This document shows positions 1,364 to 55,739 of a DNA stretch of 64,000 nucleotides, piece after piece. A model generated the notes under the pieces. It was given only the letters and a program-made list of their open reading frames with translations, was not told where the DNA came from and did not search any database. The stretch is from an uncultured Clostridia bacterium (GTDB lineage: Bacteria > Bacillota > Clostridia > Oscillospirales > Acutalibacteraceae). The position numbers and the translations under genes are program-made. Location of the stretch: positions 124,001-188,000 of the forward strand of contig CANQBM010000002.1 of assembly GCA_947589575.1 (NCBI GenBank), read 5' to 3'. Each line of letters begins with the position of its first letter. Positions within the stretch are counted from its first letter, which is position 1.

Positions 1364-1475
1364 AATCTTTTCCTTTCTCTAAAAGTGATTTTGAAAAGTT
1401 ATTTAACATTTTAATGTCATATTGTTTATAATTTGGATTTTTTGCTTTGAACTGTTTTAATTGCTTCTTTATATA

Positions 1476-2629: not shown

Positions 2630-2710
2630 CTCAAATGACAGTAAACAACGGGCACTACAAACCGTTGGGTATTGCATAAGATAAATTTTATTATATATCA
2701 GATTGACAAA
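2630..2710 (-). promoter_or_regulatory. CRISPR leader with leader-anchoring motif
   Basis: This 81-base AT-rich stretch separates csn2 from the first repeat. On the minus strand its last seven bases, directly against the repeat, are ATTTGAG (2630-2636). That is the leader-anchoring sequence known from type II-A systems such as Streptococcus thermophilus, which directs Cas1-Cas2 integration. New spacers should therefore enter at 2629, making the right-hand spacers the youngest. I could not pick out one convincing array promoter, so the array may also be read from the csn2 side. Confidence 0.8.
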
Positions 2711-3376
2711 TTAATCAATAATTTCACATAAATCCTCATCAACAATATATATTTTTTCATATTGCGATGAAACAAAAGATTTTTTATTTTCAATCAAAAG
2801 AATGTTTATATTTTGATAAATCAATTCCTTATAAAGCTGATTCAGCTCATCAGCGCTAAAACAATTATGAATATTCAATAAGACAAAACATTTAACTGTT
2901 GAATATTTTTTTATAACAATCATAAAATCAAGTAACCTGTTAAGCAGATTGCCGTTAACCACAGGTTTAAAGTTTTGAATTTTCATCAAGTCTATAATAT
3001 CAAGCTCATCTTTAAATTCAAAGTCGAAATCATAACTCTGCGAGAGCATTTCAAGGTAACAAAGTACGTTTGTTTTAATCTTCATTGTATCTTCGGTTAA
3101 AAATGTATTTGCATGCTCTGACAAATCCTCATATATTTTTTTCATAAAAGCGCCCGAAAAATCAATACTGAATATATCCGAAATAAAGCATACGTTATTC
3201 TTGAAACTTATTTTAGAATAATTTTCGGAAAACACTATATCCTTTTCCTCAATACATCCGTCATAAAAATTTTTAACCGTTTTTCTGTAAAGAGAATGAT
3301 TTTCAATACATAACACACTTATTTTATTTTTTGACAAATCAATAGGTTTTGACATAAATTCAAAGCTTACCATCAT
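2711..3376 (-). CDS. csn2: Csn2, type II-A adaptation protein
   Basis: The 221-residue product has the length of the short Csn2 family (SpyCsn2 is 220). Csn2 forms a tetrameric ring that binds double-stranded DNA ends and is needed with Cas1, Cas2 and Cas9 to acquire spacers. The N-terminal beta region includes [12 protein letters not shown], followed by a helical middle (residues about 80-130) and a C-terminal Rossmann-like end ([21 protein letters not shown]). Its start overlaps the cas2 stop by 4 bases (ATGA), so translation is coupled. Its presence, with no cas4, defines subtype II-A. Confidence 0.9.
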
Positions 3377-3693
3377 AATATCAACAACCTTTCATCTGTG
3401 TCCACAACATTACTGTTGCATTTACCCGAAATGAACTCCATTTTTGAAAACTGTTTTTCCGTAACAGACAATATTTGAACACAACCGCTTTCAGGACGGG
3501 ATTTTTTCACCTCATTAATTATTTGCGACACTTGAGTGGAATTAAGGGCAAGCTTTGCGTAAACCGACTCCTGTATCATCATAAAACCGTCTTTAATTAA
3601 AAATTTTCTGAATTTCCTGTAATTTCTTTTGTCTGAAGCTGTCACTGTGGGTAAATCAAAAAATACAATAACTCTCATAAATCTATAACTCAT
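3373..3693 (-). CDS. cas2: Cas2, CRISPR adaptation endoribonuclease-fold protein
   Basis: The product is 106 residues from the first ATG, or 101 from the second ([11 protein letters not shown] at residue 6), which matches the usual Cas2 N-terminus better. The ferredoxin-like fold is visible: the beta1 strand VIVFFDLP with the conserved Asp, the helix following [14 protein letters not shown], and the C-terminal strand ERLLIL used for docking on Cas1. Cas2 is the structural core of the Cas1-Cas2 integrase. The first start overlaps the end of cas1 by 11 bases, so the two are translated together. Confidence 0.94.
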
Positions 3694-4558
3694 ATTGATA
3701 AAACTTTATATCGGCGGTATCGCCGCTTTCAATTGCCTCAAAAACGCTTTTTGCATAAATTTTAATTACATTTAACAAATTTTGTTTTTTTCCGTCAACA
3801 AAAAGCTCCATACTTAACAAGGAAAGAATAAAATGTTTTTCATTGGTATCAAACTTTGTCGGATTAAAATTTTTAACCGCGCGATCAATAACAGGTCTAA
3901 ACGGCTCCATCAAATCGCATCCGAAATTAAACTGATTAAACATATTATTATGAAAAAGTCCAAGCATAGTTGAATATCCGTTGCAAACAATTTCTCTGTT
4001 AAAACAAGACAAAATTATACTGTAACCGTAATTCAGCATTGCGTTTACCGGGCACTCATCATTTCTTGAAAATTTTTTGCCGAACATTGCATTGAAATAT
4101 ACTTTTGCAGCATGACCTTCCCTGTTTGATTCGTCATTAAATTCCATCTCGTTAATATAGTCATATAGTAAATCAGCCCCGTTTAAACGAAAATAATCAA
4201 GATTTTCAGCTTGCATTTTTATTTTTTGTGTAACGATGGAAGTCCAGACTGCCTGCTTATTTATTTCAGTCCATTCAAGTTGAGTCCTGAATTTCAGTGA
4301 ACAATCATGGCATCCGTAATAGGGTACAAGCTCGGAGGACGGATTTTGCTTTTCATCACAAAAAATGACCTTGATTTTTTGTTTTGTTATCTCGCTGAGT
4401 AAAGCCGTGGTAATGGAGGAAGCGGTGTTTTCAATAATCAAAACAGAAATTTCACTGATATGTACACGGACTGTACTTTCGCAATCACGCACCACCATAT
4501 AACCAAGTCTCAAATCAATTTTTGACGGTTTTGAAATCACCACTGTTCTCCATCCCAT
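3683..4558 (-). CDS. cas1: Cas1, type II CRISPR integrase
   Basis: The 291-residue protein has the type II Cas1 layout: an N-terminal beta domain (to about residue 75) and a helical catalytic domain. Likely metal ligands, by position against SpyCas1 (E149/H205/E220), are E147 in [17 protein letters not shown]203 in [10 protein letters not shown] and E218 in [12 protein letters not shown]. Cas1 inserts new spacers at the leader-repeat junction. The gene follows cas9 with a 10-base gap and overlaps cas2, so cas9-cas1-cas2-csn2 reads as one operon. Confidence 0.97.
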
Positions 4559-4568
4559 AACATTCTCC

Positions 4569-7500
4569 TTATTTAAGTAAATTTATTTCGTTTTCAAACA
4601 ATCCCGTAATAGATTGATTTATAAGCTTAAACGATTTATATGACGGTTGAATTTTGTTACTTATTGTGGTTACACCGCTTTTTTTCGCTTCGCCGATTGC
4701 AGTTAAATCTCCGCTTAACGCGTTAGCGTGGATAATATTGATTATCTGCATAAGGGTATAACATTGGCTGTATAATGAAAGTTTTTCAAAAACATTTTTC
4801 TTTTCGGTTAATGTGTTTGCAAGCCTTCCAAATTTTACACCGTATATAGCGTTTTTCATTTTGTCTGTTAATACATCATACAAATCCAAATTTTCCTGTA
4901 ATGTTATTCCATCGAAAGAAGTTATTTCTTTTTCACACCTAAGCTCAACGCATTTTGCAAGATAGTTTGAAATCTTTTTAACATATCTCTCCAAATTATA
5001 ATTAAGCACGAGCTGAACAGCCGGTTTACATCCGATTACCGCTCCGTTGTTCTTCTTACTGCTTATATGCATCCTAAATCCATCAAGACTGATAAGCGCG
5101 TTATACTTGATACAAGGAATGATTATTTTAACATTATCTACCCCAAGCCGTTTTGACATAAACAATTCGGGATTGTTTTTATATTCTTTTTCAATGTACA
5201 AATCAACAGGTTCAAAGGAACGAATCAATTTTCCCTTTTTATCTTTATATTCAACAAATGAAAAATAGGTTGATGTCGGTCTGTTGTAACCGCCGTATTT
5301 ACTGATTTCCAAACCTTTTTTGAGCGGAACCTGACCATTGCCCTTTTTCAAAGGCATTTGATCAAACAGACCACCTTTCTGTTTGTAGGCATACCTCGTA
5401 AATCTAATATTATTTTTAGACAAAATTGATTTCACTGCATTAAGGGTTTCATCGTTTTCCGCAACCCACGCGCCCGGAGTGGAATAGTCGAATAACCTGT
5501 TAATACTCCAAATGCCATTTTGGATATTGTTTATAAAATAACTTTGTCTTGCTTTAACCGTATAAACATTTCCTACAACAATATTCAGGTACGCGTCTTT
5601 TGCATGGTGGAAATCATTAACATCACGGCTTTTAATAATATCAAAATCTCTTCTGAAATCAGAAACAAGTCCTGCTTTTATATTTTCAATATCCGTGTTA
5701 GGATAGCGGTTTTTTAAAAGCTGTGCAACCGCTTTTGTAGACTGCCTTGTTTCAACAAGCTGTCTTGCAACAAATGAAGATAACTCTTCGTCAGTCAAAG
5801 CGGAATTTCTTGTAAGTCTGTCAAACTTTCTCTTGCTGATTAAGCCCTTTGAAAGCAACATTTTCCAAAACGGCATCATTTCTGTTCTTATGTTTTCGGC
5901 AACAGGATATTTATTTCCTTTTACTTCGTTGGCGGTTTTAAAAACAAGCACTCTGTTATCAAGACTATCGTCCTTTATCTTAGAACGAGGATAAATATGG
6001 TCAATATCATAAATGTTTTTGTTATAAAGATTTTCAAAATCTATAGCTTTACCTGTATACATACATTTACCGAATTGAGTAAAATACAGGAATAACGCAT
6101 CGCGCCTAAATTCATTTTCATCTGTATTGCACAGTTTTTCATAAAGCGCACTTTCATCTTTTTTGCAATATTTATAAAGTTCAAGCAGTCTTTGCTTTCT
6201 TGTTACCGTCCTCTTTTTTTCGCCCTCAGATTTTGCAACCTCAATAAAAATCTTTTTAGGAGCACTGCCCTGTATTTTAACGATTTCCTCTACAATTTGC
6301 ATTGCCTGGTATACCGGACGTTTTATTTTAGGGGAAACATAGAGCTTGTCCACTTCCTCTTTCAGAGACGTAAATTCTATTGCTCCGTTTTCATTATCAA
6401 TATTATCCTTAAAATCATAATTTTTGCTGAGCAGCTGCATTAAATTATCATTTGTTTCCCAAAGCGCGTGAATGATATTAACATATTCTCCGCTTTCAGG
6501 TAAAACAGAATGTATTCCGGTCAGCAATTTTGCGGAAAGCCTGCCCCAGCCGGTATATTTAAGCTTCAATATTTTAATAATATCGTCATTTGAAATCTTA
6601 CCGCCGTATTTTTTCATAAGACGTTTTTTAAGCAGCTTTTTATCTTCACCGAAAATAGTAATTGCTTTTATGATTTCTTCCTTATCGGAATCGGGTAAAT
6701 CAAGAAAAGCCAAATCTCTAAACGGTTTTAAATTACTTTTAAAATCGCCGTCAATACCCGTGATTTCAACATCATCAAAGTTATGAAGTTCAAGATATTT
6801 TTTTAATGTTGAACATTTTACTTTGTTTTTCTTTAGGAACAAATCATTGTAAATATTCTGTTTCAACTCAACAGATATACTTTTTCCGTCAATTTTAAGA
6901 TTATTTAATTCATTGAGTACAGTAAAAGCAGAATATAATAGCGAATTTTTCGCAATGACATCTTCTTTCGGTAAATAGGTGCATTTACTTGTAAGGTTGT
7001 CAATAAAATTTTCGGCGCTCTTGTCAATATCAACAACAGATTCAAAGTTCCAAGGATATATCTTTTCGTTAGTTCTGACAACCCAGCTTCTTTCGCTGTG
7101 GCTGTTGAGAGGACCTACATAATAAGGGATTCTAAAATTAAATATATCTATAATTTTTTCGCTTATTGTTTTATTGTTTTCATCTTTTTTTGTCAAAAAC
7201 GGCAGATAGGCTTCTGCATTTTTCAGTATAACCTTTAATTCATCTCTGTTTAACTGCATGGGTATAACTGAATTATCCTTTGTAACAGCTTTAGGCAAAA
7301 ATGAATTGCTTGATATTTCCGCATACATTTTACAGTACCGCTCATCAGCCGGTTCTTTAGGCAGTTGCTTTCTTAAAAATTCACAAAACAGTTCCTGTGA
7401 ACATTTTTTGGCAACAGCTTCTTTTTTTGAATATCCCGAATAAGCAAGGTAATTAGGCGTCTTTTCATTGTTTACATTGAAAATAAGATCGTATTTCTCG

Positions 7501-8507
7501 GGTACATAAGTTTTAACATATTCTTTCAAAAGCTTTAAATCATTCTTATGCTTGTTATATGTATCCACCTTTGAAAAAGAAATATATTTTTCACTGTTTA
7601 AAATATCTGCGAGAACAGCCCAATCATAGATTGATTTAATCATTTCAACAAGTTCAAATTTTTCACCAAAAGTATTTTCATAAACAGCCTTCTTATCATC
7701 ATAACCGCTTTTAAATGTTATGCTTTTTGCTTCACTGTCATCATATTCATACGTATCAAAAAGGTCTTTTGCTTTTGCCGTACCGCCCGAAAGTAAAACA
7801 ACAACAGCTAATTCAAAGGTATTGTCCCTTTTATTAAGATTAAACTCCTTGGCAAGAAGATCTTTTTTCTTTGTAACAGTTAAAGAACGCTCCTTGAGGA
7901 TTTCTTCAATCCTTGACAAGTCACTGTTATAAAACCCATTTGAATCATAATTATCTTTTATGTAGATATTCAGGTCATTCCATATCGAAGAAAAATCGGA
8001 GTTGCCGTTTTGTCCTAACTCTTCGTTATCGAACAAAAAGTGACCTCTGTTTTTTATTATGTGGCTTACCGCAAGATAAACAAGACGAACATCATGATAT
8101 GACGCATCTTCAACAAGCTCTTTTCTTAAGTGATAAACAGTGGGATATTTCTTAAAATAATCTGTATCAGTAAAATCTTTATCATTAAATAACGAATACT
8201 TACCGTCTACGCTTTTATCCCCGTTGTAAAAAGAGCTTTCTTTAAGACGTTGAAAAAAAGCTGTATCTTTTTTTGAGATTTCTTCATTAAAAATCATTTC
8301 AAGGCACTGCTGCCTGAATTTATTTCTCTCTGTTCTGCGTCTTGTTCCTCTAAAGATTCTTCTTTCAACAGCGGTTTTTCCGCTGTCCAGAAGTCTTATT
8401 CCCCACATAGCATTACCTTTAAATTTAGGTATGTTGTATTCTTCGTCGGTAACTGCCCATCCTATTGAATCTGTTCCCAAATCCAATCCTATAAAATAAT
8501 TTTTCAT
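4569..8507 (-). CDS. cas9: Cas9, type II-A RNA-guided endonuclease
   Basis: At 1312 residues it is a little shorter than SpyCas9 (1368). RuvC-I is at the N-terminus (FIGLDLGTDSIGWAV, Asp9). The Arg-rich bridge helix follows near residues 48-66 (ERRIFRGTRRRTERNKFR). RuvC-II has Glu756 (IFIEVAKSE), HNH has Asp836/His837 (YDIDHIYPRS) with Asn851, and RuvC-III has His967/His968/Asp971 (FHHAKDAYLN). All nuclease residues are present, so it should cut both strands. The last ~250 residues would hold the PAM-interacting domain; the PAM cannot be read from sequence. The start is fixed by AAGGAGG 5 bases upstream. It heads the cas operon, with the tracrRNA divergent and immediately upstream. Confidence 0.98.
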   Translation of the reverse strand: MKNYFIGLDLGTDSIGWAVTDEEYNIPKFKGNAMWGIRLLDSGKTAVERRIFRGTRRRTERNKFRQQCLEMIFNEEISKKDTAFFQRLKESSFYNGDKSVDGKYSLFNDKDFTDTDYFKKYPTVYHLRKELVEDASYHDVRLVYLAVSHIIKNRGHFLFDNEELGQNGNSDFSSIWNDLNIYIKDNYDSNGFYNSDLSRIEEILKERSLTVTKKKDLLAKEFNLNKRDNTFELAVVVLLSGGTAKAKDLFDTYEYDDSEAKSITFKSGYDDKKAVYENTFGEKFELVEMIKSIYDWAVLADILNSEKYISFSKVDTYNKHKNDLKLLKEYVKTYVPEKYDLIFNVNNEKTPNYLAYSGYSKKEAVAKKCSQELFCEFLRKQLPKEPADERYCKMYAEISSNSFLPKAVTKDNSVIPMQLNRDELKVILKNAEAYLPFLTKKDENNKTISEKIIDIFNFRIPYYVGPLNSHSERSWVVRTNEKIYPWNFESVVDIDKSAENFIDNLTSKCTYLPKEDVIAKNSLLYSAFTVLNELNNLKIDGKSISVELKQNIYNDLFLKKNKVKCSTLKKYLELHNFDDVEITGIDGDFKSNLKPFRDLAFLDLPDSDKEEIIKAITIFGEDKKLLKKRLMKKYGGKISNDDIIKILKLKYTGWGRLSAKLLTGIHSVLPESGEYVNIIHALWETNDNLMQLLSKNYDFKDNIDNENGAIEFTSLKEEVDKLYVSPKIKRPVYQAMQIVEEIVKIQGSAPKKIFIEVAKSEGEKKRTVTRKQRLLELYKYCKKDESALYEKLCNTDENEFRRDALFLYFTQFGKCMYTGKAIDFENLYNKNIYDIDHIYPRSKIKDDSLDNRVLVFKTANEVKGNKYPVAENIRTEMMPFWKMLLSKGLISKRKFDRLTRNSALTDEELSSFVARQLVETRQSTKAVAQLLKNRYPNTDIENIKAGLVSDFRRDFDIIKSRDVNDFHHAKDAYLNIVVGNVYTVKARQSYFINNIQNGIWSINRLFDYSTPGAWVAENDETLNAVKSILSKNNIRFTRYAYKQKGGLFDQMPLKKGNGQVPLKKGLEISKYGGYNRPTSTYFSFVEYKDKKGKLIRSFEPVDLYIEKEYKNNPELFMSKRLGVDNVKIIIPCIKYNALISLDGFRMHISSKKNNGAVIGCKPAVQLVLNYNLERYVKKISNYLAKCVELRCEKEITSFDGITLQENLDLYDVLTDKMKNAIYGVKFGRLANTLTEKKNVFEKLSLYSQCYTLMQIINIIHANALSGDLTAIGEAKKSGVTTISNKIQPSYKSFKLINQSITGLFENEINLLK

Positions 8508-8517
8508 AAAAACCTCC

Positions 8518-8546
8518 TTGACAAAATGTCATTTTTGATTTATACT
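8518..8546 (+). promoter_or_regulatory. tracrRNA promoter
   Basis: A near-perfect vegetative promoter: TTGACA at 8518-8523, a 17-base spacer, TATACT at 8541-8546. The start should fall near 8551-8554. The -35 box overlaps, on the opposite strand, the cas9 ribosome binding site (8513-8519), so the two genes share sequence. Confidence 0.85.
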
Positions 8547-8550
8547 TAAG

Positions 8551-8670
8551 GCAGTCTCAATACTACCTATGAGATTGCACTACAAGTTCAAATAAAAATT
8601 TATTCAAATCGCCGTTTACGGCATCACAGTGTGTGATTCGGGACCTACATACGTAGGTCTTATTTTTTTT
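8551..8670 (+). ncRNA. tracrRNA of the type II-A system
   Basis: Bases 8561-8593 form the anti-repeat. UCAAAU (8588-8593) pairs with the repeat start GUUUGA (lower stem). AAGU (8584-8587) faces GA as the SpyCas9-type bulge. CACUAC (8578-8583) and the upstream AUGAGAUUG and ACUACCU then pair with the rest of the repeat, with a few wobbles and one bulged A. Downstream come a nexus-like AT hairpin (AATAAAAATTTATT), a GCCG/CGGC hairpin (8611-8622), an ATCACA/TGTGAT hairpin (about 8623-8637) and a terminator. Length about 120. The pairing was worked out by eye and fits only the minus-strand reading of the array. Confidence 0.92.
8642..8670 (+). terminator. tracrRNA intrinsic terminator
   Basis: Stem GACCTAC / GTAGGTC (7 bp) with an ATAC loop, followed by TTATTTTTTTT. 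On the opposite strand no U-run follows, so it should stop only plus-strand transcripts. Confidence 0.9.
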
Positions 8671-8688
8671 GCTGTGTATCACAAATTA

Positions 8689-8716
8689 AGTATAACATAA
8701 AACAAAAATATTTCAA
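8689..8716 (-). promoter_or_regulatory. candidate cas9 operon promoter
   Basis: On the minus strand TTGAAA (8716-8711), a 16-base spacer and TATACT (8694-8689) form a good promoter. A start near 8683 would give a roughly 175-base cas9 leader that is antisense to the whole tracrRNA. No better match lies between this and the cas9 start. The call rests on consensus match only. Confidence 0.55.
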
Positions 8717-8834
8717 AACTGTTTTAAGAAATAATCTTTTAAATAGTATCGTTTACTAATAGTTTGATTATTTGCTTTTAGTTACATAACAACATTTTCT
8801 GCAAAATTAATACTGCAGTAAAATTCTAAGATAT

Positions 8835-8876
8835 AAAAAATAAACGTCAGCAGAAATCTGCTGGCGTTTATTTTTT
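8835..8876 (-). terminator. terminator after rubredoxin gene
   Basis: A long inverted repeat (AAACGCCAGCAG / CTGCTGACGTTT on the minus strand, one mismatch) with an ATTT loop is followed by TATTTTTT. It begins 3 bases after the rubredoxin stop. A/T runs on both sides mean it could also act on plus-strand read-through from the tracrRNA side. Confidence 0.85.
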
Positions 8877-8878
8877 AC

Positions 8879-9037
8879 TTACTCTTCTATGCTGAAATCT
8901 TCTTTACCTACTCCGCAGAGAGGACAAACAAAATCTTCAGGCAAGTCCTCCCATTTTGTGCCGGGAGCAATCCCGTTATCGGGGTCGCCGAGTTTTTCGT
9001 CATAAACCCATCCGCACATATTGCAAACATATTTCAT
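8879..9037 (-). CDS. rubredoxin
   Basis: The 52-residue product begins [20 protein letters not shown] and has the two rubredoxin CxxCG knuckles (C5-x2-C8 and C38-x2-C41), plus the [18 protein letters not shown] linker typical of the family. It binds one iron through four Cys and carries electrons to oxygen- or peroxide-reducing enzymes in anaerobes. GGGAG lies about 9 bases before the ATG. It stands alone between the CRISPR locus and a decayed gene, so its partner protein is elsewhere. Confidence 0.95.
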
Positions 9038-9100
9038 AATATCAACTCCCATCATTAAATTGATTATATTATATGTTAAATTTACATATTAATCAATACC

Positions 9101-9300
9101 CTATTTTCCGCTCTTTGCCGTATAAAGTTCTCTCACATCATTAACCTTGTCACAAATTTCTTTAATACTAATACTGCAGGTTGGGAAATCAAAAATATGA
9201 TTAAGCGCGGTATTGCCTCCTGATTTTATCTGCAGATATTTTCAAGCATATCAATATCTCAATCACTAAAAAGCATAGAAATATTTATTTTAAAAACCAT
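9101..9300 (-). pseudogene. decayed short gene, family unknown
   Basis: The minus strand has clear protein-like sequence that no open frame covers. The last ~45 codons read LQIKSGGNTALNHIFDFPTC then SISIKEICDKVNDVRELY and end at a TAG at 9101. Going upstream the frame must shift by one near the Ile-Cys codons (about 9229-9233) to continue as DIDMLEN, which itself sits behind an in-frame TGA (about 9260). With no ribosome site before the ATG at 9300, it reads as a gene with at least a frameshift and a nonsense change. I do not recognise it. The rest of the 9038-9429 gap is featureless AT-rich sequence. Confidence 0.4.
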
Positions 9301-9429
9301 AGCAAATTTTATATAAAATTCTGAAATCGGATTATATACCATATCTGTAAAATTTTTGTTTACTGATTTTTTATGATATGATAGTATAAAATAAGAATGT
9401 AATACATTATATAAATTTAAGAGGTAATA

Positions 9430-10359
9430 ATGAAAAAAGCATTAAAAATTCCGCTGACAATACTTTTGCTGTTTGCCGCCGCCTCGGCAGCATTTATAGG
9501 GGTAATAAGTATTCGCGGAGACTATGACAAATATATAATACCAAACGGCTTTGAGGAGTCCGTAAATCGGGCCGACACCTTCAGAAGCGACGACACATAC
9601 GCAAGAATTATGAGTTCAAACCTCCTTGTTAATTATGAAAGCTGGGGCGGAACAGACGCTCGCAAAAGAGCAAAAATGTTTTCTTACATTCTTAACGCCT
9701 ACAAGCCCGATGTAGTTGCTGTTCAGGAAATGAGCGACCAGTGGTACTGCTGCCTGACTAAAAACAGAGGGAGTTATCGTCTTGTGTACCCGATTTCTTC
9801 AGGCGCAATGTTTCATATGACAGGCTTAATGTACAATTCGGACACCGTAAAGCTCCTTGATTACGGACGTATGGAATATACGCAGGGCGACAACAAAAAG
9901 CTAAGAAGAGTTGTCTGGGGATTTTTTGAGGATAATGAAACAAAAAAGCAGTACGTTGTAACGTCAACACATTTTGATTTAATACGCGAGGGAAAGGAAA
10001 AAGAGGAGCTGAGCGTTATGAATACTCAGGCAAGCGAACAACTTGATATTGATAAAGAGCTTGGTAAACGATTTGACTGCCCCATAATCTCCGCAGGTGA
10101 TTTTAACGCGATGGACAACGGCGGATATGACAACGAATATTTTGCGCCCACGGTATATAACACAATCGCCGAAACACTGACGGACACAAAATACATTGCT
10201 CAAACAAAAACCGGCGGAGATGCGCGTGACGTTGATAAACCCACCTTTGACCATATCTTCTTAAAGGGTGACGCAACAGTAAACAGATATTCAATAATAT
10301 CCGACAGCGTGATGTCCCAGATGAGCGACCATTACCCTATCTTTGCGGATATAGCATAA
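9430..10359 (+). CDS. secreted or membrane-anchored endonuclease/exonuclease/phosphatase (EEP) family protein
   Basis: The 309-residue protein starts with KK and a hydrophobic stretch (residues 5-27) that is a signal peptide or anchor, so the domain faces outside. The EEP (DNase I-like) fold is marked by the Asn in SSNLLVNYESW, Glu in VVAVQEMS, the STHFD strand, GDFNAMDNGGYDNEYF and the terminal SDHYPIFADIA, which together hold the metal and the general base. Members cleave nucleic acids or phosphate esters such as sphingomyelin or inositol phosphates; the substrate here is unknown. AAGAGG precedes the ATG by 6 bases. It ends 5 bases from the convergent DUF2798 gene. Confidence 0.85.
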   Translation: MKKALKIPLTILLLFAAASAAFIGVISIRGDYDKYIIPNGFEESVNRADTFRSDDTYARIMSSNLLVNYESWGGTDARKRAKMFSYILNAYKPDVVAVQEMSDQWYCCLTKNRGSYRLVYPISSGAMFHMTGLMYNSDTVKLLDYGRMEYTQGDNKKLRRVVWGFFEDNETKKQYVVTSTHFDLIREGKEKEELSVMNTQASEQLDIDKELGKRFDCPIISAGDFNAMDNGGYDNEYFAPTVYNTIAETLTDTKYIAQTKTGGDARDVDKPTFDHIFLKGDATVNRYSIISDSVMSQMSDHYPIFADIA

Positions 10360-10364
10360 TTTTC

Positions 10365-10874
10365 TTATTGCTTTTTGATTTTATAGATTTTTCTGAACAG
10401 AAATCTTGTTACGGGTCCTGCCGCAAAAATGTTCCACATTAACGCCATAGGGAAATTTTTTAATATTGTTCCAACCCATATTGCGGGAAGCTGTACAATC
10501 GGCTGATGTCCTAAAATAAGGTTAAAAAGTATTGATGCGACAAGGCTCATTGTCGGGCACATTATTAATACCGTACAGCCTGAAATCATAAGCGTAATGA
10601 AAAACGGATTGTCCTTTTCGGGCTGTATGATTTTTTCCGCAAGTCTGTGACCGAGCCTGTTTCCCCACAAATTAGAGAATATAAATACAAACATCCACAT
10701 ATAAGCCATTTCCTTAAGCGCCTGCCAAAACACAATATTTGTCATATTGCTTAATCCGCCTGCTTTCAGCGTGTACCCCATCTTAATTGCAATGTTATAA
10801 AGCTCCATACCGTACGCCATTGTTATTGACATAATAATTGAGAATACGATTCCCTGCCCCTTTGTTTTTGGCAT
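10365..10874 (-). CDS. DUF2798 family membrane protein
   Basis: The 169-residue protein has four predicted membrane spans in two similar halves, each opening with a pattern like FSIIMSITMAYGMELYNIAI or FITLMISGCTVLIMCPTMSL, as in the DUF2798 family of uncharacterised inner-membrane proteins. A strong AAGGAGG site lies 8 bases before the ATG. Its promoter is strong but a 12-bp hairpin stands between promoter and ribosome site (separate entry), suggesting control by attenuation or by a repressor. No function is known for the family. Confidence 0.8.
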   Translation of the reverse strand: MPKTKGQGIVFSIIMSITMAYGMELYNIAIKMGYTLKAGGLSNMTNIVFWQALKEMAYMWMFVFIFSNLWGNRLGHRLAEKIIQPEKDNPFFITLMISGCTVLIMCPTMSLVASILFNLILGHQPIVQLPAIWVGTILKNFPMALMWNIFAAGPVTRFLFRKIYKIKKQ

Positions 10875-10901
10875 AATAGTCCTCCTTACAGTTAAAAAAT
10901 T

Positions 10902-10936
10902 AAAGTGCGTAAACCCAATCTGGATTTACGCACTTT
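10902..10936 (-). promoter_or_regulatory. 12-bp hairpin in the leader of the DUF2798 gene
   Basis: AAAGTGCGTAAA (10902-10913) is the exact reverse complement of TTTACGCACTTT (10925-10936), with an 11-base loop. Read on the minus strand it is followed by TTTAATTTTTT and then the AAGGAGG site, so it looks like an intrinsic terminator placed in the 5' leader. It could equally be a DNA operator. Confidence 0.6.
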
Positions 10937-10953
10937 TGCTACTCGATAGATTT

Positions 10954-10982
10954 ATTATATCAAAATACTCCTGAATTTTCAA
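10954..10982 (-). promoter_or_regulatory. promoter of the DUF2798 gene
   Basis: On the minus strand TTGAAA (10982-10977), 17 bases, TATAAT (10959-10954). The start near 10947 puts the 12-bp hairpin in the first 50 bases of the transcript. Confidence 0.75.
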
Positions 10983-11050
10983 GAAAAATATTGTATTTAA
11001 AGTTTGCATTTGTTAATATTGTTTATAATCTTTAATGCAAAGGAGTAATT

Positions 11051-11530
11051 ATGTCAAAGCTTGAAATTACAAATATGGTTATGATACAAGACATTAAAAC
11101 AGGCAAGGTAGTGGTTCAGGACAGAGTAAAAAACTGGTGCGGTATTTCCTTTCCCGGAGGTCATGCAGAAAACGGTGAAAGTATTTATGACAGTGCAGTC
11201 CGTGAAATAAAAGAAGAAACAGGGCTTGACATTAAAAATCTTAAGTCCTGCGGTTTTATGTTTTGGTTTAATAATAAGACAGAGGATAAATATTTTACAT
11301 ATTTCTATAAAACTACGGATTACAGCGGCGATATGCTTGATGAAACAGATGAGGGTATTGTCTTTTGGGCGGACCCGAAAGATTTTAATAATATGAAACT
11401 TTCACCGAATTTTAAGGAATATTTGCCTATGTTTTTTGAAAACAAATACACAGAGGCGTACTGCTCATGGAATGACGATATGCACCCCGATTTAACAATG
11501 GATAACCCATGGGGAGTAATTTACAGATAA
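11051..11530 (+). CDS. Nudix hydrolase, MutT/8-oxo-dGTP diphosphatase type
   Basis: The 159-residue protein has the complete Nudix box at residues 37-59 (GHAENGESIYDSA followed by VREIKEETGL), which binds Mg2+ and hydrolyses nucleoside diphosphate-linked compounds. The length and the FPGGH entry fit the MutT-like 8-oxo-dGTP diphosphatases common in Firmicutes, but the substrate is inferred. AAAGGAG stands 6 bases before the ATG. The MATE gene follows after 16 bases, so the two are probably co-transcribed. Confidence 0.88.
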   Translation: MSKLEITNMVMIQDIKTGKVVVQDRVKNWCGISFPGGHAENGESIYDSAVREIKEETGLDIKNLKSCGFMFWFNNKTEDKYFTYFYKTTDYSGDMLDETDEGIVFWADPKDFNNMKLSPNFKEYLPMFFENKYTEAYCSWNDDMHPDLTMDNPWGVIYR

Positions 11531-11546
11531 TATCAGGTATATACAT

Positions 11547-12890
11547 ATGGCAAAAACACAGGATCTGACAGTAGGAGATACTAAAAAGCTATTGCTTATT
11601 TTTTCATTTCCCACTCTGCTAAGTAATCTTTTTCAACAATTTTATAATCTGGCTGACACGGCAATCGCAGGTCATATCATAGGTAACAATGCACTTGTCG
11701 CAATCGGAGCAACATCGTCAATTTATAGTCTTGTTATCACCTTTTCGGCAGGACTTACAGGAGGCTTTGGTATAATATTTGCCCAGTGTTTTGGCGCAAA
11801 GGATTATGACAGGCTCAGAAAAGCCTTAGCGCACTCTCTCGTTATAAACATAATGTTTTCAATAATTATCAGTGTCACAAGCTTTTTAATTATAAGTCCC
11901 GTACTCAGACTTATGAACACACCCGCAGAGCAGATAAATGACGCTCACAGCTACATAACAGTAATTCTCACGGCGATTTCCGTTCCGACGTTTTATAACC
12001 TTGAAGTGACGCTTTTAAGGTCGCTCGGCGACAGCAGAACTCCCCTTTATTTTCTTATTTTCGCAAGCGTGCTCAATATTGTTCTTGATTACATTTTCAT
12101 AAAATATATGCACACGGGCGTAATGGGCGCCGCGCTTGCAACTGTAATGGCACAGGCAGCGGCAATGATACTGTGCTTTATTATTCTTGTTAAAAATTTT
12201 AAAATAATCCGACTTGAGAAAAAGGATTTTAAATTCAGCGCAAGACTGTTTAGGAAAATGATGTCTGCGGGTATGACAATGGCAATGATGAACTCGATTT
12301 TCTCAATAGGCTCAATAATTATGCAGTACGCAATCAACGCTTTGGGGGATATAATAATTGCGGCTCATTTAGCGTCAAGAAAGCTGTCTGAAATGTTTAT
12401 GCAGCCGCTCGTCACCATAGGGATTTCCTGCTCTACCTTTGTGGGACAGAACTACGGCGCAAAAAAATATAACAGAATATCGCAGTCAATTAAATACAGC
12501 CTGATTTATTCACTGATATGGTCTGTGATAAGCTTTGCCGTTCTGTTTTTCCTTGGAGGTAGCTTAGCTGCGCTTATTACAGGCACTGACAGCGATGAGG
12601 TTATACAAAACACAAAAATGTACCTCAGAATTAATGTTCCGTTTTATTTTATACTCGGTATACTCTTTATACTCAGATTTTCCATTCAGTCGATTGACAG
12701 GAAAATACCTCCCCTTATTTCAAGCAGTATGGAGCTTGCAAGCAAGATAGGTGCATCGTTTGTATTTATTCCTCTTTGGAAATATTTCGGCGCTTGTATA
12801 GCAGAGCCGTTGAGCTGGTGTCTCGGCGCAGTTTACCTGATATTTGAATTTAAAAATACTTATAAAAAAATTAAGACAGGCACCGCTTGA
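11547..12890 (+). CDS. MATE family multidrug/Na+ antiporter
   Basis: The 447-residue protein has twelve predicted membrane helices in two six-helix halves. Family blocks are visible: FPTLLSNLFQQFYNLADTAIAGH near the start, TAISVPTFYNLEVTLLRSLGDSR around residues 130-160, and the second-half equivalents SCSTFVGQNYGAKKYNRI and LRFSIQSIDRKIPPLISSS. MATE proteins export organic cations and drugs using Na+ or H+. It lies 16 bases behind the Nudix gene, and its last codons form part of the terminator stem. Confidence 0.93.
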   Translation: MAKTQDLTVGDTKKLLLIFSFPTLLSNLFQQFYNLADTAIAGHIIGNNALVAIGATSSIYSLVITFSAGLTGGFGIIFAQCFGAKDYDRLRKALAHSLVINIMFSIIISVTSFLIISPVLRLMNTPAEQINDAHSYITVILTAISVPTFYNLEVTLLRSLGDSRTPLYFLIFASVLNIVLDYIFIKYMHTGVMGAALATVMAQAAAMILCFIILVKNFKIIRLEKKDFKFSARLFRKMMSAGMTMAMMNSIFSIGSIIMQYAINALGDIIIAAHLASRKLSEMFMQPLVTIGISCSTFVGQNYGAKKYNRISQSIKYSLIYSLIWSVISFAVLFFLGGSLAALITGTDSDEVIQNTKMYLRINVPFYFILGILFILRFSIQSIDRKIPPLISSSMELASKIGASFVFIPLWKYFGACIAEPLSWCLGAVYLIFEFKNTYKKIKTGTA

Positions 12891-12904
12891 CAATGCCTGT
12901 CTTA
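12872..12904. terminator. bidirectional terminator between MATE and HprK-like genes
   Basis: TAAGACAGGCA (12872-12882) pairs with TGCCTGTCTTA (12894-12904). On the plus strand AATAATTTTTATT follows. It overlaps the MATE stop codon and lies just past the end of the convergent HprK-like gene. Confidence 0.85.
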
Positions 12905-12929
12905 ATAATTTTTATTATATAATTTTACT

Positions 12930-13640
12930 TTATTTTTTCATTGCGTTATATGAGGTGAGGAATGCCTCCTCGCTTATATCACAGCCAAGCTCATAGAGAG
13001 GCACCTTTGCAAATATCTGCTCAAGAACATCAAAGAGCTTGTCCATTTTTTCGGCATTGAGATTTCTTATCGTCTGAGAAAAAATGTTATATACCGCCTT
13101 GCTTGTATCCGCCTTTTTAATCCAGTTGGTTTCACTTCTTTCCAGAAAACATATACCGGCAAGTTCAACAATTTTCGGAGTTGAATAATCATACTTTCCG
13201 CTCCACGGAGTTCCGCAGGCGTAAACCTTGCCGTCAATAAGCCTTATGGCAGGCTTGTCGTCATTAAGCATATATGCCCTGTCACCCAAATGCTTAAGCC
13301 AGAGCTGAGTATGAGTTGATTTGCCGGTACCGCTGTCGGCAGAAAAGGCATAAGCCATACCATCAACAACAATACAGGAGGAATGAAGAATAATACCGTT
13401 AAAATTTAAAAGCTGAGTATAAAAGTCCGAACCCGTGAGCATATATTCCCAATCGTCCTGCACAAGTTCGGGATGCTCCTTCATCGCCATTAAAACCCTT
13501 TTTTCATCAACATCAACAACAATGTCAATATTCTGATTTTCATCTTGATTGTCAGAGAGGTAAGGACTTGCCTGCTTTTCGGTCCTGCCCTTTACGTTTA
13601 CTATATTAACCTTTAATCCAGCAATATCATATACAGCCAT
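12930..13640 (-). CDS. HprK-like (HPr kinase C-terminal-fold) protein
   Basis: The 236-residue protein has a Walker A loop at residues 100-109 (SADSGTGKST) preceded by an ILHSSCIVVDG strand, and a downstream LNDDKPAI strand, as in HPr kinase/phosphorylase C-terminal domains. It lacks the N-terminal domain and length of true HprK. Such orphan HprK-like proteins are typically found with PqqD-like and NTP_transf_5 proteins in peptide-modification (RiPP) gene sets, including lasso peptide clusters, where some phosphorylate the peptide. Here the PqqD-like and NTP_transf_5 genes lie about 37 kb away, and no precursor peptide is seen nearby. Fold call firm, role unknown. Confidence 0.78.
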   Translation of the reverse strand: MAVYDIAGLKVNIVNVKGRTEKQASPYLSDNQDENQNIDIVVDVDEKRVLMAMKEHPELVQDDWEYMLTGSDFYTQLLNFNGIILHSSCIVVDGMAYAFSADSGTGKSTHTQLWLKHLGDRAYMLNDDKPAIRLIDGKVYACGTPWSGKYDYSTPKIVELAGICFLERSETNWIKKADTSKAVYNIFSQTIRNLNAEKMDKLFDVLEQIFAKVPLYELGCDISEEAFLTSYNAMKK

Positions 13641-51098: not shown

Positions 51099-51365
51099 TT
51101 ATCCCTCAATAAGATTTTTACTTCTTAACAATTCCAAAAGTTCCTTAACGTCCGTGCGAACAGTCTTTTCGTCAATGTCATACTTTTCAAGCATTGCCGC
51201 AACAATACTGTCCTCTGTCTGCTCCGTTTTAAGCAGTTCAAAAATAAACGCAGCGGTCGGATTGTTCTTGACAAGTCCGTTAAACTCCTTCGCCGCCTTG
51301 CCTGTCGCAATAGCAAAATTTTCACCGTCTATTGAATTTGTTACAATTCCGTCTTTTAATCTCAT
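51099..51365 (-). CDS. PqqD-like RRE (RiPP recognition element) protein
   Basis: Start at 51365 (MRLKDGIVTNSIDGENFAIA, 88 residues) follows AAGGA by 9 bases. The PqqD fold is visible: beta hairpin IVTNSIDGENFAIATG, then helices around FNGLVKNNPTAAFIFELLKTEQTEDSIVAAMLEKYDIDEKTVRTDVKELLELLRSK. PqqD-type domains bind leader peptides of RiPP precursors and present them to modifying enzymes. It is coupled to the NTP_transf_5 gene; no precursor was found. Confidence 0.85.
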   Translation of the reverse strand: MRLKDGIVTNSIDGENFAIATGKAAKEFNGLVKNNPTAAFIFELLKTEQTEDSIVAAMLEKYDIDEKTVRTDVKELLELLRSKNLIEG

Positions 51366-51370
51366 ATATA

Positions 51371-51880
51371 TCATTCCTTATATATTTTTTTATTAATTAC
51401 TTCTTTGAAAAAATAGGAAAGCGTATTAACTAATCTGCCTTCATTCAGATATTTGCGTATTTCGTCGGGCGTCATCCATTTTACATCTGCCACTTCCTTT
51501 TCGGTAGCGTTTGCTAAATTGACATCACCGTCATATTGAAACAACCATACATCCTTGAAATCATTAAATTCCTCTCGTATTTCCGAGCATACCAAGACAC
51601 CTGTCTCAGGCGGTAAATCAATGCCGACCTCTTCCTTAACCTCACGAACGGCTCCCCTCAAGCTTGTTTCGCCCTTTAATACGGAACCGCCTACACATTC
51701 CCACATTAACGGAAAAGTCGGACGGCTTGCGTCACGCTGTGAAATCAGGTATTTACCCTCTTTATTTACAATCCAGACGTGCACAACAAGGTGATACCTG
51801 TTTTTGGGCAATTTACTCCCCCTGATATGCTCCTCGCCCGTAAGCTCTCTATTTCTTGTATACAAATCCCACAATTCCAT
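51371..51880 (-). CDS. Nudix hydrolase
   Basis: The 169-residue protein has an intact Nudix box at residues 65-87 (GSVLKGETSLRGAV then REVKEEVGI) and the N-terminal pattern MELWDLYTRNRELTGEEH seen in a widespread Firmicute group related to IPP isomerase-like Nudix proteins (VVHVWIVNKEGKYLISQR). Substrate unknown. It ends just before the PqqD-like start and may share its transcript. Confidence 0.88.
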   Translation of the reverse strand: MELWDLYTRNRELTGEEHIRGSKLPKNRYHLVVHVWIVNKEGKYLISQRDASRPTFPLMWECVGGSVLKGETSLRGAVREVKEEVGIDLPPETGVLVCSEIREEFNDFKDVWLFQYDGDVNLANATEKEVADVKWMTPDEIRKYLNEGRLVNTLSYFFKEVINKKIYKE

Positions 51881-51956: not shown

Positions 51957-52487
51957 TCAGCTTTTTCTTTTGCTGTAAAATTCCACACCCGAATACGTAC
52001 CGTCTTTATTTAATCTTCTGTCTGCGACATATCCGTCTTTTTTAAAACCTGCCTTTAACATAACTTTTGATGATTGAGTATTCAATTCATTACAAGAACA
52101 TTCAACAAGATAATATCCCCGTTTATTCAGTAAATAATCTGATACAGCTTTTAAAGCCTCTGCCGCGTAACCGTTTCCCCAATATTCATATCTAATCGTA
52201 TATCCCACATTACAATAATTATGCTTTTTAATAACCGTATTAACATCAATATTACCGACAACTATATTATTATCTTTAGTTTCAATTACCCACTTTTCAT
52301 AATCGGATTCATCAGCGTCTTTTATCCAAGACTTAATGCAATTCATTTCCTCTTCCACTGTTAAATTCGGATATTTAATATATTTTGCCAATCTTTCGTC
52401 TGTAATTATTTCATATAAAGCATCAATATCGGTTTCCTTGTATCTTCTTAAAATCAACCTCTCGGTTTCTAATTTAGGACTTAACAT
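51957..52487 (-). CDS. GNAT family N-acetyltransferase, RimJ/RimL type
   Basis: The 176-residue protein has the GNAT fold: LETERLILRRYKETDIDALYEI at the start, the acetyl-CoA strand NVGYTIRYEYWGNGYAAEALKAV (pyrophosphate loop WGNGYA), and CNELNTQSSKVMLKAGFKKDG at the end. RimJ/RimL-like members acetylate protein N-termini or small amines; the target is unknown. Its start lies 14 bases past the end of the broken radical SAM frame. Confidence 0.88.
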   Translation of the reverse strand: MLSPKLETERLILRRYKETDIDALYEIITDERLAKYIKYPNLTVEEEMNCIKSWIKDADESDYEKWVIETKDNNIVVGNIDVNTVIKKHNYCNVGYTIRYEYWGNGYAAEALKAVSDYLLNKRGYYLVECSCNELNTQSSKVMLKAGFKKDGYVADRRLNKDGTYSGVEFYSKRKS

Positions 52488-52501: not shown

Positions 52502-53308
52502 TTATAATTTATTATCGGCATATGCAGTTGTTTTTCCTGCCGGCAAATATGATTTAAATATTTCAAGAATATTGTTTTTATAAATATTCCCTTGAAGCAC
52601 ATCGCCATTTGGCGAAACACAAATCGCCCTGATATCCTGAGGATTTTCTGTATAAGGGCTAATTTAAGGTGTATCAGAGTCAAAATATTCTTTTAAATAT
52701 TTTAATGCGTTTCCACTCGGAAAAATTATATTTCCTGAAGATTCTTCAATTCCCATATTCAGAAATTCATTTAAAATCTCACGGGTTTTGATATTGTAAG
52801 GATTATCTGACTGTGAATCAACAAGCCATGCGGGATGCACACGAAGTCTATGGATTCCGGCTTTTATAAGTGCTTTTGTAAATGTCATTACAGGTTCAAG
52901 CGGAATACTTTCCTGATGAAATGCATCTGCCGAAAGCAATATATCATTAACGCCATTATCAATAAGTTTCTGTGCAACAAGCTGTATTTTTTCTGTATCA
53001 CGGCTAAAAAATCCGTTAGTAATCATTTGACGCTTAGAAATTCCCATTTCTCTTGCCACCGCATGAATTTTATAAACCTCCTCAGGATAAAGCAACGGTT
53101 CACCGCCAAAAGTCATAAGTGATTTTATATCATAATTTTCTGATATTCTACGAACAATTTGTGCTGCTATGTTTCCATCAATATGCTCGCCTGAGAAATG
53201 ATGTTCCCCTTCTGAACAGTGCTTGCACCGCCCCGTACAGGCAAGAGTAATCATAAATTCTATTCTGTTTAAATTATTAATGTATTTATTCATATTTATT
53301 ATTCTCAA
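52502..53308 (-). pseudogene. radical SAM protein gene interrupted by one in-frame TAA
   Basis: The first 214 codons read a radical SAM domain: CTGRCKHCSEG (C-x3-C-x2-C), MTFGGEPLLYPEEV (SAM-binding GGE-like), and LRVHPAWLVDSQSDNP. A TAA at 52664-52666 then stops it, but the same frame continues for about 53 more codons (ISPYTENPQDIRAICVSPNG and on) to a natural TAA at 52502. That tail has the CVSPNGDVLQGNIY pattern of SPASM-like ends. So one nonsense change separates an otherwise intact 268-codon gene. The first codon is TTG (53308) or an ATG five codons on (53293). The 214-residue piece might still fold. Confidence 0.8.
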
Positions 53309-53321
53309 TATTTACCGCTAA

Positions 53322-53347
53322 CGCTACACATTCGACGTGCGGGGTGC
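53322..53347 (-). repeat. copy of the rlmD 3' end (left direct repeat)
   Basis: Bases 53322-53347 match 54402-54427 at 25 of 26 positions (core ACACATTCGACGTGCGGGG). In the rlmD frame this copy reads CTPHVECVALA, like the true end RTPHVECVALVS, and weaker similarity (ADILF for VDMFP) extends about 15 bases further. It sits 14 bases before the radical SAM start, with no rlmD attached. Confidence 0.85.
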
Positions 53348-53401
53348 AGAAAAGTATATCTGCCCACTATTTACAGCGTACAATATACTAATTAATGTAA
53401 C

Positions 53402-54334
53402 TTATATTTTATGCTTTTCTTCAATCAAAGTGGCTCTACACTTTATCCTGTTTAATATTTCTGTTAAACACTCCTTTACTTCTTCCATTTCTTTTGGTAA
53501 AGGATATTTTAACGATTGTTTTTTAAAAAAAGGAATTCCAACAATACGTGGCTCCTCAACTTCTTTTTGCTCGACATAATAATATGGTTGCAAACAATAT
53601 TTTTCTCTATTGTTAATAAACCATTTTTTCCAATTTTTAATTGTCTCAATATCAACAATTGTTTCTTTTTCATTCCGTTCTTGATATTGCATTTCTTTAT
53701 TATATTCAACACATTCCTGTATCTTATCTATCATTAAAGGTAAATAATCTTTCACTTCGCTCAACAAACCTTTAGCAGAATTAAAAGGACTCGATGGACA
53801 AGGCATAAAATTAGCAACACAGTGGCAAAGTGCTGAAAAATTTTCAATCATGTACCAATTTTTATCTTTTATATATATTTGTATTGTTTTATTACAACTA
53901 TTTTTATTATCAATAATTTTCTTTACAAGTTTCTCTTTTCCTATTGGAGTTTGGTTATTATACTTTGTTTTATAAGCAAACATATCTCTCTTTTCTCCTT
54001 CTATATAAGAAAAACTGGTTTCTGCTTCTGTTTTTTTATTCAATTCGCTTGCGCTCAAAGCCACTAAAGCAGATTGAAATGTTGTCCAAAAAGAATTAAT
54101 CACATCAAAATAACTTCCATCCCATTGAAGTTCATTATAAAAAGATTCTGCAAAAGATCTATTCTCATAATGTTTCTCAAATTTATTTTCATTAAAATAT
54201 TGAAATGATAACATCAATCGTTTAAAAGAATTCTCGGCTATATTTTGTTTGTCATATTCTTTTCTTATATAGTTCTCTAATTCTGCATCCTTTAATTTTG
54301 CATCATGAAGCAGGTTCACATTATTAATATCCAT
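53402..54334 (-). CDS. protein of unknown function, lying between rlmD 3'-end repeats
   Basis: The 310-residue protein has no signal or membrane span and is rich in Asn, Lys, Glu and Tyr. Notable segments are a helical N-terminus (AKLKDAELENYIRKEYDKQN), a central ENFSALCHCVANFMPCPSSPF with three Cys, and IVDIETIKNWKKWFINNREKYCL. I cannot place it in a family, though the NF-x-P-x-P pattern is seen in some uncharacterised Firmicute and phage-linked proteins. It is clearly more AT-rich than rlmD and the housekeeping genes around it. It is the only gene between two 26-base copies of the rlmD 3' end, suggesting arrival by integration. No integrase is present. Confidence 0.7.
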   Translation of the reverse strand: MDINNVNLLHDAKLKDAELENYIRKEYDKQNIAENSFKRLMLSFQYFNENKFEKHYENRSFAESFYNELQWDGSYFDVINSFWTTFQSALVALSASELNKKTEAETSFSYIEGEKRDMFAYKTKYNNQTPIGKEKLVKKIIDNKNSCNKTIQIYIKDKNWYMIENFSALCHCVANFMPCPSSPFNSAKGLLSEVKDYLPLMIDKIQECVEYNKEMQYQERNEKETIVDIETIKNWKKWFINNREKYCLQPYYYVEQKEVEEPRIVGIPFFKKQSLKYPLPKEMEEVKECLTEILNRIKCRATLIEEKHKI

Positions 54335-54377
54335 GCTTATTCTCTCACTATTGCCTTATATTGTTTTTTCTTACTTT

Positions 54378-55739
54378 TCAATTACTTGTTTTTGACACCA
54401 GCGCCACACATTCGACGTGCGGGGTGCGTGGGAACATATCCACGGCAATTACTTTTTTTGTTTCATATCCTTTTTCTTTGAGAATTGCCAAATCTCTTGC
54501 AAGCGTTGCGCTGTCACAGGATACATAGACAATTTTTTTAGGAGAAAGCTCTTTAATCGTGTCAAGAAGTGATTTATCACAACCCTTACGCGGCGGGTCA
54601 AGGATAATAACATCGGGTTTAATACCCTGCTTTTTCAAAATCTCCGCGCCCTTTGGCGCATCCGCACAGATGAACTGTGCATTTGTAATGCCGTTAATTT
54701 TTGCATTTTCTTTTGCATTTTCAACTGCCTGAGGGATAATCTCAATTCCGACAAGCTGTTTGGCGCTTTGCGCCATTGTAAGACCGATTGTGCCGACACC
54801 GCAGTAAAGATCAAGCAGAATTTCATCTCCTGTAAGAGCCGCCAGCTCACCTGCCTTTTTATAGAGTTTTTCGCACTGATTATGATTTACCTGATAAAAG
54901 GAGTCGGGTGAAATTAAAAATGTTTTTCCGAGAAGCTTATCCTTGATATTTTTACTGCCCCAGATAATTTTTGTTTTCCTGCCTAAAATAACATTTGTTT
55001 TTTCCTTATTGATGTTGACAGCGACCGAAACCAAACCGTCAACCTTTTCTCTCAAAAGTGATACCAGCAGTTTGCTGTTAGGTATATTGTCTGCATTAAT
55101 AACGGCGCACGCCATTATCTCGCCTGTGGCAAAGCCCTTTCTGAAATATATATGGCGTAAAAGCCCGCTGCCCGTCTGCTCGTTATAAGAAGTTATATTT
55201 TCACTTCTAATCCATTCAGTAAAAGCCTTTAACCCCTGCTCAAATTCAGGCGGCTGCAATTTACAATTATCACATGGAATTATCCTATGGCTCTTATACG
55301 CGTAAAATCCCGCATACATTTCTCCGTCAGATATATTAACGGGATACTGCGCCTTGTTCCTGTAATGCGTCAAATCATCCGCACCGATTATTTCGTCAAC
55401 ACTGACATCAATATGACCTATCCTTTCAAGCGCGTCCTGTACTCTGCTTTTTTTATATTTAAGTTCTTCTTCGTATGTCATATGACGAAAGGAGCAGCCG
55501 CCACACTTTTCGGAATAAGGGCAGTCGCTTTCTGTCCTTTCTGGACTCGGAGCAACTATTTTGTCAATTATGCCGACTGCATAATTCTTTGATCTTTTTA
55601 TAATATGTGCAATTATTCTGTCCTGTGGAACAGTACCTCTCACAAAAACGGCAAGTCCGTTGTATCTTCCGACTCCGCTGCCTTCGGAGGTAATAGAATC
55701 AATCGTTAATTCAATTTTGTCGTTTTTTGACAACTCCAC
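54378..55739 (-). CDS. rlmD: 23S rRNA (uracil-C5)-methyltransferase RlmD/RumA type
   Basis: The 453-residue enzyme has a TRAM domain (KIELTIDSITSEGSGVGRYN), the [4Fe-4S] Cys set DCPYSEKCGGCSF, the SAM motifs EILLDLYCGVGTIGL and LDPPRKGCDKSLL, and the catalytic Cys in IVYVSCDSATLARD. It methylates C5 of a 23S rRNA uracil. The final codons (RTPHVECVALVSKTSN) include the 26-base sequence duplicated at 53322. The rum/rlmD 3' end is a known ICE integration hotspot in streptococci. Confidence 0.95.
   Translation of the reverse strand: MELSKNDKIELTIDSITSEGSGVGRYNGLAVFVRGTVPQDRIIAHIIKRSKNYAVGIIDKIVAPSPERTESDCPYSEKCGGCSFRHMTYEEELKYKKSRVQDALERIGHIDVSVDEIIGADDLTHYRNKAQYPVNISDGEMYAGFYAYKSHRIIPCDNCKLQPPEFEQGLKAFTEWIRSENITSYNEQTGSGLLRHIYFRKGFATGEIMACAVINADNIPNSKLLVSLLREKVDGLVSVAVNINKEKTNVILGRKTKIIWGSKNIKDKLLGKTFLISPDSFYQVNHNQCEKLYKKAGELAALTGDEILLDLYCGVGTIGLTMAQSAKQLVGIEIIPQAVENAKENAKINGITNAQFICADAPKGAEILKKQGIKPDVIILDPPRKGCDKSLLDTIKELSPKKIVYVSCDSATLARDLAILKEKGYETKKVIAVDMFPRTPHVECVALVSKTSN
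54402..54427 (-). repeat. rlmD 3' end (right direct repeat, inside the gene)
   Basis: This is the 25-of-26 partner of 53322-53347 and forms the last ~15 codons of intact rlmD. The two copies bracket 1,054 bases that hold one gene. The pattern suits attL/attR of a site-specific element that uses the rlmD 3' end and restores it on insertion. Confidence 0.85.

Follow-up and report, generated by a model that had tools for sequence, protein, structure and literature searches.

A repeat-flanked unit behind rlmD

The DNA analysed here (the window) is a stretch of 64,000 nt whose own positions serve as coordinates and whose genome is labelled G000. On its minus strand, the gene rlmD (rumA), which ends with the sequence FPRTPHVECVALVSKTSN, is followed by a unit of ∼1.08 kb bounded by two copies of a short repeat (Table 1). 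The copies lie 1080 nt apart, are 84% identical across 37 nt and share a core of 22 identical nt, which is the longest exact match of the rlmD tail to the following 3 kb; the maximum in 300 shuffles of these 3 kb was 14 nt. Even with up to three mismatches permitted, a search of G000 for the 22-mer returned these two copies and no third. The second copy translates as TPHVECVAL, as the initial annotation had noted when it described an rlmD-end repeat some 1.08 kb away in the same frame, yet it is merely an rlmD fragment. The annotation had also considered that this copy could belong to a second rlmD paralogue, an origin that was rejected: G000 has one full-length RlmD, and its other match to the RlmD query is a 79-residue stretch in a different methyltransferase. 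Among the relatives searched with this query, 59 of 60 gave a match at E ≤ 0.001, some of the weaker rows being other methyltransferases.

Table 1. Features at the rlmD locus of the window
Feature	Position	Strand	Basis
rlmD (rumA), target gene, 453 aa	54378..55739	-	Pfam tRNA_U5-meth_tr (E 8.7e-27) and TRAM
Repeat copy 1, within the rlmD 3′ end (HVEC codons), in frame	54391..54427	-	
Orphan gene, 310 aa, 27.3% G+C	53402..54334	-	Sole ORF between the repeat copies
Spacer, orphan gene to repeat copy 2	53348..53401	-	R-type site test negative
Repeat copy 2, rlmD core fragment, far edge of the unit	53311..53347	-	
Radical SAM gene with in-frame TAA, first of the second block	52664..53308	-	Pfam Radical_SAM
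GNAT acetyltransferase, second block	51957..52487	-	Pfam Acetyltransf_3
NUDIX gene, overlaps the start of the pqqD-like gene	51371..51880	-	ORF list, Pfam, loci of relatives
PqqD-like gene, conserved right-hand neighbour	51099..51374	-	

The insert has a G+C content of 27.4%, against 38.3% for the window on average, and not one of 630 segments of 1,043 bp is as low (minimum 28.5%). The picture of a single, very AT-rich orphan gene between the repeats is thereby upheld, and so is that of a unit devoid of integrase: the only ORF filling the insert, of 310 aa, has no Pfam match, and conjugation or mobilisation genes are likewise absent from this one-gene insert.

A second block of genes lies beyond the outer repeat. 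The frame of its radical SAM gene continues past the stop codon to ...AYADNKL. In the relatives fetched, the interval from rlmD to pqqD contained neither the radical SAM nor the GNAT gene, and a NUDIX gene 33% identical to that of the window precedes pqqD in the relative G011. The additions behind rlmD in the window therefore number at least two, namely the repeat-flanked unit and the radical SAM/GNAT/NUDIX block, and this cargo past the second core implies more than one event at the site; no further core was found in this region.

The orphan gene and its homologue

Pfam, PADLOC, NCBIfam and PDB sequences returned nothing for the 310-aa protein, and PHROGs nothing better than E 0.09; its AlphaFold2 model, computed for the protein alone, has a mean pLDDT of 35. 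Searches of the PADLOC families remained empty up to E 10, and the anti-phage role that the initial annotation had suggested for the cargo is unsupported.

Within the genus, the gene is present in one of 80 genomes, that of the window itself, and absent from the 79 others. A single strong homologue, in G1105, emerged from searches that covered the order (394 genomes), the phylum (398) and the family (398, run at E ≤ 5, with some match in 20 of them). None of seven weaker matches proved convincing on re-alignment; the best of them covers 48 residues in G834. The match in G335 is part of an ORF read as coiled-coil and peptidase-like, and that in G688 (E 3.7e-4) sits in a 35-aa frame with stops; a further match, in G922, has E 3.8e-4. 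Neither the single sequence nor a two-row profile detected a relative in plasmids, phages or viral contigs. In genome contigs the single sequence found none, and the sole match of the profile was RGIG1247, a Clostridia MAG from cattle rumen that is probably the same genome as G1105. Applied to 200 family genomes, the profile matched the window alone, and G1105 was not among its matches.

The G1105 homologue (275 aa, 38% identity by tblastn) comes from another genus than the window and shares the pattern CHC.ANF.PCP...FNSAKG with the window protein. It starts 19 nt beyond a 384-aa RlmD-type gene, and no core repeat follows it apart from a 12-of-13 near-match. Both known members of the orphan family, two in all, thus sit behind an RlmD-type gene. 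The content downstream of the 384-aa gene varies between genomes, as read in 13 loci of the genus of G1105. In two loci of that genus (L203 and L207), foreign C-terminal tails similar to the one described below for G013 are carried by this gene or have left traces after it; both RlmD types thus seem to be used as target genes.

Empty and occupied rlmD ends

The DNA behind rlmD was taken from 33 members of the genus. In 22 of 34 genomes, including the window, rlmD and the pqqD-like gene lie on one stretch, and the latter, as the conserved right-hand neighbour of rlmD, was used to define an empty site. The gap between the two genes is only 4–93 nt, i.e. the site is empty, in seven of 21 relatives (G023, G018, G008, G024, G025, G028 and G030); it measures 351 nt in one, 1.0–15 kb in the 13 others and 3.0 kb in the window. 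Not all DNA in the long gaps need be inserted, since a flavoprotein-like gene of ∼460 aa precedes pqqD in some of these 13 relatives (G001, G006 and G013). Among the seven relatives closest by RlmD identity (71–85%), six have an empty site and G011 holds other DNA. The repeat, the low G+C content, the absence of the gene from 79 genomes and the empty sites in seven of 21 relatives together establish an insertion at the rlmD 3′ end with no integrase inside, the boundaries of which are set by the repeat. The comparison with relatives that the initial annotation had called for thus reveals both empty sites and larger islands, and the layout of the window is not universal.

One of these islands is in the congener G013, where an element of ∼12 kb with a PF07508 serine recombinase occupies the rlmD site (L058, G013:C6, oriented 1383–13378). 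The rlmD gene runs into a foreign C-terminus, followed by ∼12 kb in which restriction-type and ParB-like genes were recognised by eye and then by the recombinase, which ends in VETVCLLHKTK. This arrangement looks like that of published rumA ICEs. The passages of PMC4701971 concerned with rumA describe streptococcal ICEs with a single serine integrase that enter this gene, leave repeats of 2–21 bp and swap the 3′ ends of rumA and of the integrase gene, and a passage of PMC4320837 reports CTn5 of C. difficile relocated into rumA. As far as these passages go, the rlmD/rum gene is a documented ICE target, in keeping with the earlier claim, and the accompanying idea that the element simply restores the gene end gives way to an exchange of 3′ ends. 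Integration at the rlmD 3′ end, also claimed initially, is borne out by the empty sites, the other DNA found there elsewhere and the serine-recombinase element of G013.

Probable site-specific integration and a possible source of the recombinase

The unit of ∼1.08 kb, with one gene and no integrase, was probably integrated site-specifically into the rlmD 3′ end. The evidence in favour comprises the 22-bp core on both sides, the empty sites, the absence of the gene from the rest of the genus examined, the foreign base composition, the location of the G1105 homologue behind an RlmD-type gene, the G013 element and the published rumA ICEs; sharp sequence breaks at the same core are also seen in other genomes of the order. 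Against it stand the lack of a recombinase tied to the unit, the G1105 homologue without a core repeat behind it and the further cargo past the second core. In such an event, a recombinase provided in trans would join the core of a circular form of the unit to that of rlmD, and one of the two alternative rlmD C-termini would have arrived with the unit while the other was displaced 1.08 kb downstream. A serine integrase specific for rlmD is a plausible candidate for this enzyme, given the G013 element at the rlmD site and three PF07508 matches elsewhere in G000. Such matches occur in 13 of 17 genomes tested, and the nearest on the contig of the window is ∼177 kb away. A second copy of the unit was not found in the data at hand, nor was a circle or a same-strain empty site seen; circle, enzyme and transfer are inferred. 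The orphan gene most likely belongs to the short accessory genes that move from one rlmD end to another.

Some relatives have longer DNA at the rlmD site (up to 15 kb, in G013), which could also suggest that the unit is the residue of a larger integrative element whose integrase and transfer genes were deleted internally. This origin is unlikely, as no integrase remnant is seen in 1.04 kb of DNA that one intact gene nearly fills, and the core is undamaged.

R elements and rlmD cassettes across the order

The starting point for a wider view was the presence, in two relatives of the order, of short rlmD matches away from the gene, where single genes are separated by a repeat that ends in the rlmD core. 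This element, termed R, spans ∼170 bp and consists of AAATTCC.GTTTG, a hairpin, CCCAAGG, the core CA(T/C)GTnGAG and an rlmD-like tail. In several copies AAATTCC.GTTTG is near the preceding stop codon, and the hairpin loop mostly has 10 nt with T's at its end. A covariance model made from five copies (G039, G055 and G006) was searched against 60 genomes of the genus, 295 of the order and 63 of the family of G055, by filtered searches that yield lower bounds. At E ≤ 0.001, R occurs in at least one of the 60, at least 10 of the 295 and at least six of the 63, corresponding to 14 distinct genomes of which three are seed sources. A match in G1190, which is an rlmD end, was dropped from this count, and five genomes of the order with E between 0.001 and 0.01 were excluded; among three of these that were opened, one has an rlmD end and two have neither R nor rlmD.

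The loci fetched contain 29 R matches, or 25 copies after removal of two antisense mirrors, one rlmD end and one weak match. Of these, 11 follow rlmD in the same orientation at a distance below 3 kb, three follow an rlmD 3′ fragment and one another R; nine are preceded by a contig end at a distance of 1.1 kb at most, and one, at 6706–6803 of L144 (G162:C104), lacks rlmD in the 6.7 kb upstream and could mark a secondary target site. Six loci (L066 in G039:C20, L067 in G055:C23, L141, L142, L149 and L062 in G006:C35) contain units of one gene each, placed behind rlmD or a fragment of it and closed by R, and five of the six have two R copies per stretch. One of the 25 copies comes from the genus of the window, in G006, in the order rlmD, 23S-IVP gene, DUF3795 gene, R, NERD gene. 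In L143 (G055:C25), behind an RlmD-type gene, a leader with the palindrome GAGACAGTATGTTTACTGTCTC is present twice in succession before an IVP gene.

Pfam matches were obtained for 14 of 20 cassette-region proteins, including GNAT, methyltransferase, IVP, SUKH, GyrI-like, 2′-5′ RNA ligase-like and Tox-GHH nuclease families. PADLOC matched one of 10 proteins tested (nine from cassette regions and the G1105 homologue), as HEC-07 and HicA-like. A three-gene unit behind rlmD in L151 (6384–9203, G186:C2) combines a SUKH immunity-type, a Tox-GHH nuclease-type and a HEC-07/HicA-like gene, followed by R.

Exchange at the core is visible between genomes: a leader located behind rlmD in one genome can be found behind R in another. 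In G006 and G055, which belong to different families and have different RlmD types, the 180 nt to the left of GAGACAGTATG are 68% identical (121/177 aligned) and the 180 nt to its right 96% identical (169/176). Among 250 rlmD/R pairs, a comparison that omits four R copies and one rlmD fragment with no core by the pattern used, the left sides are on average 25% and the right sides 43% alike; right sides at least 80% alike occur in four pairs, which involve the rlmD genes of G1190 and G162. Given this exchange, the account of integration in trans is better supported for R units than for the unit of the window. The arrays also contain rlmD 3′ fragments of ∼150–210 bp with cargo genes directly after them (L066, 2050–2202, plus strand; L067, 6548–6757, minus strand). 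These longer matches in G039 and G055 could be taken to mean that the second repeat copy of the window is itself an rlmD 3′ fragment produced by homologous or illegitimate recombination, with no site-specific enzyme. This is very improbable, since the exact match stops at the core, the same point at which sequence breaks occur in unrelated elements of the order.

As to the nature of R, its pair measures exceed those of all 500 shuffles in the 29-row alignment, which was fitted to the model, leans towards it and includes the four dropped rows. In the 25 clean rows, the pairing value is 0.826 for arms of the same copy, which 38 of 5000 permutations reach, and 0.804 for swapped arms; one of 10 copies folded as single-stranded DNA has a z below −2. 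The hairpin is consistent with selection, with modest support. No Rfam family reached its gathering score in two array loci or in the stretch of the window scanned. R may be the relic 3′ end of a serine-integrase gene, given that most copies have an open frame in the HVE register and that the G013 recombinase ends in an rlmD-like tail; the length and sequence upstream of R copies vary, however, and no protein end seen in 30 recombinase loci resembles R, the longest ORF having been inspected for about a dozen. The exact R pattern has no occurrence in viral contigs, and the R peptide gave E values of 0.1 or worse in plasmids and phages. No report of rlmD cassette arrays was found in the open PMC literature; subscription journals and preprints are beyond this scope, and such arrays may be known elsewhere.

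The unit of the window and the R cassettes

In the unit of the window, as in an R cassette, one gene immediately follows an rlmD core. When the DNA behind rlmD was scanned for cores like that of the gene, the scores exceeded their own shuffles in the window (31.6), G006 (18.5) and G001 (12.5); those of G011 (4.3) and G012 (7.3) are also above shuffles and far under the lowest real rlmD end (14.4). The unit could be an rlmD cassette, composed of gene, structured 3′ site R and core, in which the 3′ site is divergent or shortened. Target and orientation are shared, the cargo is a single gene with no integrase, and R cassettes are present in the same genus (G006). The spacer, when read by eye and post hoc, shows GTGGGCAG, a 10-nt loop ending in TTTT and CTGCACCC, resembling one R subtype. 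Systematic comparisons argue against this assignment, which is doubtful: the R model scores only 6.8 bits at the second core and has no match in the window at E 0.001; the similarity of the spacer to the 25 R arms is equalled by 28% of shuffles (p 0.28); its fold is ordinary (z −0.23); and no R or rlmD leader in the set closely resembles that of the unit. These results do not place the unit among the R cassettes.

For the order as a whole, a tentative proposal is that single genes circulate as cassettes in an undescribed integron-like system and enter at the rlmD 3′ end. Each cassette would comprise a leader, a gene and R, and a recombinase provided in trans would chain them into arrays; the unit of the window would be a member whose right site has diverged. 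The left leader would supply the last codons of rlmD, and the hairpin-bearing right site R would end in the core. If this reading holds, gene-cassette capture would not be confined to classical integrons, the conserved end of an rRNA-methylase gene would be a landing pad for single genes in this order, and reading behind rlmD could reveal short mobile genes with no known domains, such as the 310-aa orphan. The unit itself is a well-bounded mobile unit of 1 kb, with no recombinase of its own, at a known ICE target.

Comparison with known systems

The unit shares with the serine-integrase ICEs of rumA, as described in passages on Streptococcus (PMC4701971) and CTn5 (PMC4320837), the target gene end, short direct repeats and an altered RumA/RlmD C-terminus. 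It differs from the ICEs in those passages by its single gene, by the lack of integrase and transfer genes and by an identical core of 22 bp instead of 2–21 bp. When set against rlmD-targeting ICEs and IMEs as a class, it has the insertion at the rlmD 3′ end with a flanking direct repeat, and neither its own integrase nor conjugation or mobilisation genes.

CIMEs, which are cis-mobilisable or passively moved elements, have attachment-like flanking repeats and no integrase. The unit resembles them in both respects and differs in its size of only ∼1 kb and in that no second element was found at its outer core.

Gene cassettes of integrons carry attC sites, form arrays and may lack an integrase; the attC core differs from CA(T/C)GTnGAG. 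Unlike integrons, R units have the coding end of rlmD as their entry site and CA(T/C)GTnGAG, not the attC core, as their core; the unit of the window differs from them in turn by having no hairpin-bearing site. The R units nevertheless look like an integron-like system, in that they form arrays of single genes, usually in one orientation, each gene being followed by a site with a hairpin, and share one entry site.
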